From contig JABXHV010000069.1 in the NCBI GenBank assembly GCA_013373445.1, positions 18,481-82,480 on the forward strand: a stretch of 64,000 nt of DNA, read 5' to 3'. The translations under genes and the position numbers were made by a program. The DNA comes from Paracoccaceae bacterium. GTDB taxonomy: Bacteria; Pseudomonadota; Alphaproteobacteria; Rhizobiales; Stappiaceae. The stretch's first letter is position 1; each line of letters begins with the position of its first letter. The notes under the pieces were generated by a model, which saw only the letters and a program-made list of their open reading frames with translations, had not been told where the DNA came from and made no database searches. This document shows positions 13,713 to 16,283 of the stretch, in pieces.

Positions 13713-14924
13713 ATGAACGTTGGCTTCTTGCGCACAGCACTCGTGCTGGGCATTCTTTCCTGTATTGGCCCCTTTGCCATTGATCTCTATCTGCCTGCCA
13801 TGCCGCAGATCGCATCAGATCTGGGAACAGATATCGCAGGTGCACAACTCACATTCACAGCCTATTTTGTCGCCTTCGGAGTTGCACAACTGATCTATGG
13901 CCCACTAGCTGACTGGATCGGCCGCAAGCCTCCAATCTATATCGGGCTCGGCGTCTTCATTGCCGGATCGCTGGTTTGTATGGTCTCACCAAACATCGGC
14001 TGGCTCACTGTCGGACGTTTCACCCAGGCTCTGGGTGCCGCAGCGGTCATGGTTATACCGCGCGCCATCGTGCGAGATTTGCACACGGGCGTTGAAGCCA
14101 CCCGTCTCATGTCCCTTGTCATGCTGGTGATCAGCATCTCACCAATGCTGGCCCCACTCACAGGCAGCGCGATCCTCATGGTAGGTGAATGGCATTCCAT
14201 TTTCCTCGCATTGATCGCTCTTGCAGGAGTGGCCTTGCTGCTCACGAAAACACAACTGCCAGAAACCCTGCATCACCATCATCGGGAAAAAATCAATGTG
14301 CGTCGGCTTCTCTCCGGCTGCGGCAATCTTCTTGGCAATCGCCGTTTTGTTGGCTTGACCCTGATTGGTGGATTTGGGCTGGCCAGTTTCTTCGTCTTCA
14401 TCGCCTCCGCGTCCTTTGTCTACATGGAGCACTACGGTCTGACGACAACCGGCTTCAGCCTTGTGTTTGCACTCAATGCCATCGGTTTCTTCGGCGCATC
14501 CCAATTTGCACCCGGATTTGGCGCACGCTTCGGCCTGACCAAAACTGCTCTTTTCGGCGTTTGCGGCTTTGCAACGGCAATGCTGATCCTATTGGCGTTG
14601 GTGGCAAGCGGCTTTGATGATCTTGAAGTTCTGATGGTGATGTTTTTCATCGGCAACGCTTGCCTTGGCTTCGTCATCGCACCAACTATGGTGATGGCGC
14701 TGGACGACCATGGCGACAACGCCGGTCTGGCCTCGTCACTTGGCGGAACCCTTCAGATGGTTTCCGGTGGTGTGATGATCTTCATCTCGGGCCCGTTCTT
14801 TGACGGGACAGCCCTGCCAATGGTTGCCGCGATTGCGCTTTGTGCCACGCTGTCACTTATCTTCGCGCTTATCACGCTGGTGCCAAGAGGCGTCACTCCA
14901 TTGCCACTGGACGGGAACGAATAA
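13713..14924 (+). CDS. multidrug effflux MFS transporter, Bcr/CflA family
   Basis: SCIGPFAIDLYLPAMPQIASDLGTDIAGAQLTFTAYFVAFGVAQLIYGPLADWIGRKPPIYIGLGVF. Confidence 0.92.
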   Translation: MNVGFLRTALVLGILSCIGPFAIDLYLPAMPQIASDLGTDIAGAQLTFTAYFVAFGVAQLIYGPLADWIGRKPPIYIGLGVFIAGSLVCMVSPNIGWLTVGRFTQALGAAAVMVIPRAIVRDLHTGVEATRLMSLVMLVISISPMLAPLTGSAILMVGEWHSIFLALIALAGVALLLTKTQLPETLHHHHREKINVRRLLSGCGNLLGNRRFVGLTLIGGFGLASFFVFIASASFVYMEHYGLTTTGFSLVFALNAIGFFGASQFAPGFGARFGLTKTALFGVCGFATAMLILLALVASGFDDLEVLMVMFFIGNACLGFVIAPTMVMALDDHGDNAGLASSLGGTLQMVSGGVMIFISGPFFDGTALPMVAAIALCATLSLIFALITLVPRGVTPLPLDGNE

Positions 14925-15024
14925 GGCTGACAGCGACAAACCAGACCAACCGGGGTCATTCCCGGTTGACTCACGCCAAAAATAGCGCATAAACAACAGC
15001 GTTTTGCACGTTTGGAGCTCAGGC

Positions 15025-15147
15025 ATGATCCGGCACTTTGCCGATAAAGCGAACACGCGGACGACGGTCACTACCGGCGTTGCTTTCGCCTGCGCTACTC
15101 CAGCCTCAACGAAAACCGTCAAACCGACAACGAAAACCACCGCTTAA
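15025..15147 (+). CDS. candidate 40-aa Thr/Lys-rich leader peptide upstream of asd
   Basis: MIRHFADKANTRTTVTTGVAFACATPASTKTVKPTTKTTA*; 12 Thr and 4 Lys in 40 codons; GGAG upstream of ATG; 101 nt before asd. Confidence 0.35.
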   Translation: MIRHFADKANTRTTVTTGVAFACATPASTKTVKPTTKTTA

Positions 15148-15248
15148 AGGTGCCATTCATCCCACGCTCCCCGGGGATGGGGGGCGCTGAAAGACCGGCA
15201 CGGCCATAGGCAAGCTGGTTTTGCGGGGAGACGGACAAGGATATTCAA

Positions 15249-16283
15249 ATGGGTTACAAGATCGCAATCGCAGGCGCCACCGGCAACGTTGGCCGTGAAA
15301 TGCTCGACATTCTCGAAGAGCGTGGCTTCCCCGCTGACGAAGTCGTGCCATTGGCATCACGCCGCTCGCAGGGCACTGAAATCTCCTTCGGCGACAAGAC
15401 GCTAAAGGTTCAGGCGATGGAGAACTATGATTTCTCCGACACTGATATCTGCCTGATGTCTGCTGGCGGCGACATTTCCAAGGAGTGGGCTCCGAAGATC
15501 GGCGCGCAGGGTTGTGTTGTGATCGACAACTCATCAGCATGGCGCTATGACGCCGACGTTCCCTTGATCGTTCCCGAGGTCAATGCTGACGCGATCACTG
15601 GCTTCACCAAAAAGAACATCATCGCCAACCCGAACTGCTCGACAGCTCAGTTGGTGGTTGCCCTGAAGCCGCTTCACGACGTTGCCCGCATCAAGCGCAT
15701 TGTTGTGTCCACCTATCAGTCCGTATCAGGTGGCGGCAAGGACGCGATGGAAGAGCTGTTCAACCAGACTCGCGCAATCTTCGTCAACGACCCGATCGAG
15801 CCAAAGCTCTTCACCAAACGCATTGCGTTCAACGTTATTCCGCACATCGACAGTTTCATGGAAGATGGTTACACCAAGGAAGAATGGAAAGTCCTTGCTG
15901 AAACCAAGAAGATGCTGGACCCGAAGATCAAGGTGACATGCACCGCGGTTCGCGTTCCGGTTTTCATCGGCCATTCGGAAAGCGTCAACATCGAGTTTGA
16001 AAGCGAAATGACCGCTGATCAGGCTCGTGAGATCCTGCGTCAGGCCCCTGGCTGCCTGGTCATCGACAAGCAGGAAGACGGAGGCTACATCACGCCTTAC
16101 GAAAGCGCTGGCGAAGATGCGACCTACATCTCTCGTATCCGTGAAGATGCAACCATCGAAAACGGCATCAATCTTTGGGTTGTTTCCGACAACTTGCGCA
16201 AGGGTGCCGCATTGAACACCGTCCAGATCGCAGAAGTGCTGATCAACCGCGGCTTGATCTCGCCTAAAAAGGCTGCTGCCTGA
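15249..16283 (+). CDS. asd: aspartate-semialdehyde dehydrogenase
   Basis: YKIAIAGATGNVGREMLDILEERGFPADEVVPLASRRSQG...NPNCSTAQLVVALKPLHD...YQSVSGGGKDAMEEL. Confidence 0.97.
   Translation: MGYKIAIAGATGNVGREMLDILEERGFPADEVVPLASRRSQGTEISFGDKTLKVQAMENYDFSDTDICLMSAGGDISKEWAPKIGAQGCVVIDNSSAWRYDADVPLIVPEVNADAITGFTKKNIIANPNCSTAQLVVALKPLHDVARIKRIVVSTYQSVSGGGKDAMEELFNQTRAIFVNDPIEPKLFTKRIAFNVIPHIDSFMEDGYTKEEWKVLAETKKMLDPKIKVTCTAVRVPVFIGHSESVNIEFESEMTADQAREILRQAPGCLVIDKQEDGGYITPYESAGEDATYISRIREDATIENGINLWVVSDNLRKGAALNTVQIAEVLINRGLISPKKAAA

Follow-up and report, generated by a model that had tools for sequence, protein, structure and literature searches.

The window, i.e., the whole stretch of 64,000 nucleotides that was analysed, carries asd, the gene for aspartate-semialdehyde dehydrogenase, with scores of 468 bits against the NCBIfam profile TIGR01296 asd_B (cut-off 324) and of 520 bits against NF011456 (cut-off 223). 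Asd stands at the branch point to threonine, lysine, methionine and cell-wall diaminopimelate, its product being the shared precursor of the first three. In the literature searched, little is described of the control of asd in Alphaproteobacteria, which include symbionts, plant pathogens and marine bacteria. The gene lies 324 bp downstream of its neighbor, and the region contains the following features.

Ending at 14924: Bcr/CflA-type MFS gene, the upstream neighbor of asd
14966-14993, plus strand: putative promoter with -35 TTGACT (14966-14971) and -10-like CATAAA (14988-14993), proposed from the conservation of its TTGAC box
15014-15017, plus strand: GGAG, putative Shine–Dalgarno sequence of the leader ORF, 7 nt 5′ of its ATG
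15025-15147, plus strand (ATG to TAA): leader ORF of 40 codons, MIRHFADKANTRTTVTTGVAFACATPASTKTVKPTTKTTA, with frame and Thr/Lys tail conserved in Roseibium and beyond
15103-15144, plus strand: putative regulatory codon cluster, the final 14 codons with nine Thr/Lys, the sole such tail in the window
15136-15144, plus strand: element 1 (ACCACCGCT), the last Thr/Ala codons, co-varying with element 2 across 44 loci
15149-15163, plus strand: element 2 (GGTGCCATTCATCCC), beginning 1 nt 3′ of the leader stop and co-varying with element 4
15165-15173, plus strand: element 3 (CGCTCCCCG), pyrimidine-rich, with element 4 or 5 as its partner in partner-swap tests
15174-15188, plus strand: element 4 (GGGATGGGGGGCGCT), with element 2 or 3 as its partner
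15191-15222, plus strand: local hairpin separating elements 4 and 5, found in the consensus fold (A1) and in the fold of the window
15224-15230, plus strand: element 5 (CGGGGAG), 6 nt 5′ of the asd Shine–Dalgarno sequence and complementary to CTCCCCG of element 3
15237-15241, plus strand: AAGGA, putative asd Shine–Dalgarno sequence
15249-16283, plus strand: asd, aspartate-semialdehyde dehydrogenase, 344 aa

A sequence-only reading of this region had proposed that a Thr/Lys-rich leader peptide could control asd. The ORF and its GGAG are indeed located where that reading had placed them, the 40 codons do include 12 for Thr and 4 for Lys, and the core of the interpretation is supported by the comparative analysis given below.

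Comparison of the regions upstream of leader loci yielded a conserved TTGAC box. Among 151 distinct loci that bear the leader, the box starts 160-210 nt 5′ of the leader stop in 111, compared with 3-31 in adjacent bins of 50-60 nt. A scan of the window's leader region with the standard sigma-70 consensus gave no match. The presence of a conserved -35-like box 5′ of the ORF argues against asd transcription starting 3′ of position 15147. A hairpin, AACCGGGgtcattCCCGGTT, at 14945-14970 overlaps the putative -35 of the leader promoter and has a terminator-like score on the minus strand.

The Thr/Lys tail of the leader and its distribution

To score tails, Thr and Lys were counted in the last 14 residues of every reading frame that spans 14 codons or more and ends in a stop, in each of the six frames. 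Among the 2,196 tails of the whole window, that of the leader, which ends in TKTVKPTTKTTA and the stop, scores 9 and the runner-up 6, so that the concern raised earlier, namely that ACN-rich runs can arise by chance, does not apply to this tail. In 80 related loci a score of at least 8 was reached by 67 of 16,110 tails, and those inspected were all located at the asd leader. The DNA pattern ACNACNAARACNACNGCNTRA, encoding Thr-Thr-Lys-Thr-Thr-Ala-stop, occurs once in the window's own genome, at the asd leader. This genome of 3.64 Mb belongs to Roseibium, being assigned to one genus with 36 others, several of which match named Roseibium loci. The clustered residues are amino acids from the pathway that asd serves.

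The codons of 34 distinct Roseibium tails indicate what is being conserved. Thr -6 is an invariant residue encoded by all four codons (ACA, ACC, ACT and ACG), Thr -5 is encoded by ACC or ACG, and position -4 carries Lys, as AAA or AAG, apart from two cases of Thr; both Thr -3 and Thr -2 are invariant ACC. Judged by these codons, the tail is under selection for the encoded residues, as synonymous codons vary while Thr and Lys are kept, with an additional RNA constraint on the final two Thr codons.

Each of the 37 Roseibium genomes examined has the leader ORF ahead of asd, at a distance of 101-112 nt, and the commonest tail is K-T-T-K-T-T-A-stop with synonymous changes in the Thr and Lys codons. 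A lack of conserved frame or Thr codons in relatives had been named as a refutation of the proposal, and the comparison shows the opposite: frame, Thr/Lys codons, hairpins and asd spacing are all kept throughout Roseibium, in Pannonibacter, Pseudovibrio, Stappia, Rhizobium, Agrobacterium and Shinella, and in many further families. Pannonibacter, Pseudovibrio and Stappia have tails such as ..TTTKTTV-stop or similar, Rhizobium and Shinella ..AKTTTKTV-stop, and Agrobacterium ..AKTTIKTV-stop. A clear leader is present in 22 of 30 evenly drawn Rhizobiaceae genomes and in 12 of the 21 other Hyphomicrobiales families with a readable upstream region, while sampling about 105 loci across the class added seven leader loci in other orders. 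At several leaderless loci asd directly follows another gene, e.g., leuB. A strict Rhizobium-type sequence pattern matches 28 of 151 Rhizobiaceae genomes; it misses most of the family because the Thr/Lys tail has been retained through divergence of the DNA. What is shared between families is the Thr/Lys tail beside the stop alone, with the N-terminal part, the length and the start varying freely.

Some further features were observed as well. Four Rhizobiaceae loci (L328, L334, L344 and L345) have shorter, weaker tails 80-87 nt 5′ of asd (LTKKTSIS, ITPKTILTN, RSTIKTAII and RSLTKTSIS, respectively), which look like decayed or retuned leaders. In one genome (L314, G197:C10) the main asd has no leader, and a second asd copy, 47% identical, lies behind an ORF containing VTKTTTRKTTRR. 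Another genome that has no Thr/Lys leader (L117, G042:C16) carries a long inverted repeat, CCAGCCCGCTCCCCCGGCCCAACCACCC ... GGGTGGTTGGGCCGGGGGAGCGGGCTGG, just 5′ of asd. Finally, Rhizobiaceae leader ORFs (e.g., L045, L103 and L108) contain an internal hairpin, CCGGCA...TGCCGG, ahead of the Thr/Lys codons and 150-200 nt 5′ of asd. Its sequence differs between genera, and it could act as a pause hairpin for ribosome–polymerase coupling.

RNA helices between the leader and asd

Four helices, 1:2, 2:4, 3:4 and 3:5, co-vary across 44 terminator-less loci, a set that combines 22 loci from other families with 22 genomes of Rhizobiaceae, nearly all of which belong to different genera. The helices make up two states, {1:2, 3:4} and {2:4, 3:5}, that cannot coexist, so that alternative RNA structures follow the regulatory codons. 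Helix 3:5 links the post-stop element with a segment that lies 15-25 nt 5′ of the asd ATG. In the window, helix 1:2 includes the complementarity between CACC (15138-15141, element 1) and GGTG (15149-15152, element 2).

Two hairpins had been pointed out from the window's sequence, CATCCC (15158-15163) with GGGATG (15174-15179) and CGCTCCCC (15165-15172) with GGGGGGCG (15179-15186). They do cross and cannot coexist as plain hairpins; both are present, as parts of the larger set of four co-varying helices. The first pairs as described and sits within a longer helix, GGTGCC..CATCCC with GGGATG..GGCGCT, that shows compensatory changes. In an alignment of 43 Stappiaceae sequences, helix 2:4 is paired in 96.5% of cells and has four pairs with compensatory changes, and its covariation score was reached by none of 500 shuffles. 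The second hairpin co-varies across the 44 loci; within Stappiaceae it does not co-vary, 3:4 (paired in 95% of cells) and 3:5 (98.7%) showing scarcely any variation there. The interval that had been marked as of interest, ending at 15248, also contains element 5 upstream of the asd Shine–Dalgarno sequence, which went unrecognized. The local hairpin at 15191-15222 is variable in sequence, with its pairing kept in part.

In the partner-swap test the longest contiguous helix formed with the partner from the same genome was compared with that formed with a partner swapped between genomes. For 3:5 the helix strength over the 44 loci was 21.4 with the own and 18.4 with the swapped partner (z=7.2, p=0.0002), followed by 3:4 (z=5.9, p=0.0002), 2:4 (z=3.2, p=0.0008) and 1:2 (z=2.9, p=0.0014, weaker in a one-per-group set with p=0.048), these p-values being optimistic because the loci are related. 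In a stricter set of 27 loci with fewer close relatives, 3:5 reached z=6.6. Element 3 gave no signal with the region 5′ of the leader or with the body of the leader ORF, and a weak one with the asd coding start (z=1.6, p=0.055). Reversed-sequence controls gave z=2.2-3.4 for 3:5 and 3:4, with 3:5 retaining z=2.2, so that composition accounts for part of the signal of these helices, although not for all of it. Compensated 3:5 partners are CGTTTTGCTCTC:GAGAGCAAGACG (L343), CGCTTCCC:GGGAAGCG (L323) and TCTCTCCCGG:CCGGGAGAGA (L139), the Roseibium pair being CTCCCCG:CGGGGAG. When long-range pairing was tested by duplex energy, p was 0.03-0.26 overall, and in the version with bulges 3:5 was not singled out (p 0.14-0.26 for 3:5 alone); the clear signal is that of contiguous helices. 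As this measure was adopted after the weak energy version, it carries some risk of a favorable choice, for which reason the controls were added.

In most loci there are 15-20 nt between the end of element 5 and the ATG, which places the element beside the Shine–Dalgarno sequence and not over it. Only in the core Rhizobium group does it directly overlap the purine-rich site (GCTCTCT:AGAGAGC, 41 of 41), so that masking of the Shine–Dalgarno sequence itself is likely in part of the family only. A pairing of element 2 with the asd Shine–Dalgarno sequence (CTCGTCC:GGACGAG) was considered and rejected: it fits some Roseibium and Stappiaceae and is broken in most Roseibium, with 65% of cells paired in the half proximal to the Shine–Dalgarno sequence and no cross-family co-variation (p=0.16).

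In the state {2:4, 3:5}, element 3 lies inside the loop of 2:4, and the RNA could be an H-type pseudoknot; with zero nucleotides between 15173 and 15174, 3:5 would stack on 2:4. Pseudoknot-free folding showed no consistent change in the accessibility of the asd ribosome-binding site (RBS) between stalled, terminating and released leader ribosomes, so that the energies do not support a direction for the switch. Such folding cannot represent {2:4, 3:5}, which may explain the lack of a clear result.

An Rfam search of 14800-15400 at E up to 5 gave no match, including to RF00506 Thr_leader and the lysine and SAM riboswitches, and nine related loci had nothing above threshold and no lysine or SAM riboswitch. 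According to a survey from 2007, threonine or lysine riboswitches had not been predicted in Sinorhizobium meliloti or related alphaproteobacteria (PMC2245857). The asd leader region of locus L202 (157-270, minus strand) has a sub-threshold match to RF00506 of 32.8 bits (cut-off 55).

Terminators at the asd leaders of other lineages

No U-tract follows the leader in the window, as had been noted, and no Rho-independent terminator or U-tract was detected there or at Hyphomicrobiales loci, except for a weak case (L110). Three other lineages of the class are built differently. A Thr/Lys leader precedes asd in 11 of 16 genomes of one family (that of G199), 12 of 30 of one order (that of G095) and 7 of 14 of another (that of G087), and 29 of the 30 loci have a GC-rich hairpin and then a T-run after it. 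An antiterminator arm of at least 6 bp that starts 1-7 nt after the leader stop was found at 20 of the 24 loci analysed. This arm complements the 5′ arm of the terminator and changes together with it: the pairs are GCGGCC:GGCCGC in one lineage, GCGGGCC:GGCCCGC in another, and GGCCCC:GGGGCC or CCGGCCC:GGGCCGG in the third. This is a textbook layout, as a ribosome at the stop codon would cover the antiterminator segment, whereas one stalled earlier on Thr or Lys codons would not. By this layout, the same leader is predicted to control transcription by attenuation in these three lineages.

Proposed control of asd and comparison with known systems

The element in the window is best explained, with a probability of roughly 0.7, as a leader-peptide attenuator through which asd expression would follow the supply of charged tRNA-Thr and tRNA-Lys. 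Whether the leader ribosome is stalled on the Thr/Lys codons or has finished would select the RNA state; in {2:4, 3:5}, the post-stop element would pair, through 3:5, with the sequence that flanks the asd RBS. Shortage of Thr or Lys would favor the state in which the RBS is open, so that asd is produced when its end products run low. As the window's lineage has no terminator, the step under control is most likely translation initiation.

The alternative that survives best, although it is an unlikely one, is Rho-dependent attenuation. Here, the leader ribosome would shield a C-rich stretch after the stop, and once it has gone Rho would load and terminate transcription before asd; the hairpins would tune Rho access or RNA polymerase pausing and not the RBS. 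The missing U-tract fits this proposal, as do the C-rich elements 2 and 3 (CCGCTCTCTCCCCGG in Rhizobiaceae), and the terminators of sister lineages make transcription a possible control point. What Rho does not predict is a co-varying 3:5 pairing beside the asd RBS (z=7.2).

It is improbable that the ORF encodes a small protein acting in trans, with its position before asd being secondary. Such a role would be in line with the N-terminal part conserved within Roseibium (TRLKADILDMMS.ALASATF), with the soluble, translated peptide SEP5 of S. meliloti (PMC10117765) and with the precedent of peTrpL, for which a function in trans is reported in the same species (PMC7298713). Across families, however, only the Thr/Lys tail by the stop is shared, while N-terminus, length and start vary, and a trans-acting peptide leaves the post-stop RNA elements and the fixed distance to asd unexplained. 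A metabolite-binding riboswitch of the lysine, threonine or SAM class accompanied by a chance ORF is slightly less probable still: a structured 5′-UTR with a possible H-type pseudoknot ahead of an amino-acid gene would suit it, but the Rfam searches of 14800-15400 and of the nine related loci gave no lysine or SAM riboswitch, the ORF is under codon-level selection for Thr and Lys, and sister lineages have classic leader-terminator layouts. The ORF can hardly be a chance reading of an ACN-rich stretch kept for RNA structure alone, since, for all that the invariant ACC at Thr -2 and -3 overlaps element 1 in Roseibium, Thr -6 varies over all four ACN codons among 34 tails, Lys -4 is either AAA or AAG, and the Thr/Lys composition survives in loci with unrelated DNA sequence and RNA elements.

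Extended to the class, the attenuator reading would describe one asd family with a single Thr/Lys leader and two interchangeable outputs, an intrinsic terminator in several orders and, in Hyphomicrobiales, a terminator-less two-state RBS switch, probably with an H-type pseudoknot. We consider the odds of this wider proposal to be about even. If it is true, asd leaders form a natural series of conversion between transcriptional and translational attenuation, and a leader for two end products with an order-dependent output offers a testable case of how the output of attenuation evolves. Many unannotated small ORFs, including that of SEP5, would moreover gain a likely function.

No description of the wider asd leader family was found in the literature searched, a scope outside which the attenuator survey of Vitreschak et al. 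(2004) falls. A motif screen of alphaproteobacteria from 2005 cites the ilvB leader peptide and not asd (PMC1273637). The closest account is that of SEP5, a small ORF of S. meliloti that carries six Thr and three Lys codons close to the 3′ end and lies in the 5′-UTR of a gene called 'aspartate dehydrogenase'. Its translation was demonstrated by Ribo-seq and Western blot, it was suggested to be a possible leader peptide, and it was described as conserved only in Sinorhizobium (PMC10117765). As the Shinella tail KTTAKTTTKTV (L081) matches these counts exactly, with six Thr and three Lys, SEP5 and the Shinella-type asd leader are probably the same element. In contrast to that account, which is limited to Sinorhizobium and includes no RNA structure or mechanism, the asd leader described here spans Hyphomicrobiales and other orders.

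Leader-peptide attenuation as such is established in alphaproteobacteria, with the Caulobacter ilv leader (PMC4117421) and rnTrpL (PMC10117765) as examples. The trpL/rnTrpL and ilv attenuators differ from the asd leader in their amino acids, genes and sequences and in their use of Rho-independent terminators. The thrL/thrABC attenuator of gammaproteobacteria (RF00506) resembles the asd leader in its Thr-rich leader peptide, its aspartate-family gene and its mutually exclusive RNA structures, and its antiterminator/terminator logic matches the terminator-bearing alphaproteobacterial asd loci. The regulatory codons of thrL are Thr and Ile, whereas here the gene is asd, the codons are Thr and Lys, and the window's lineage has no terminator. 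A further parallel is translational attenuation of the erm and cat type, in which stalling on the leader frees the RBS downstream. It shares with that lineage the absence of a U-tract and the proposed role of a leader ribosome in determining if the RNA after the stop can pair with the RBS region. The two differ in the signal, which for asd would be the supply of aminoacyl-tRNA and for erm and cat is a nascent chain stalled by an antibiotic.
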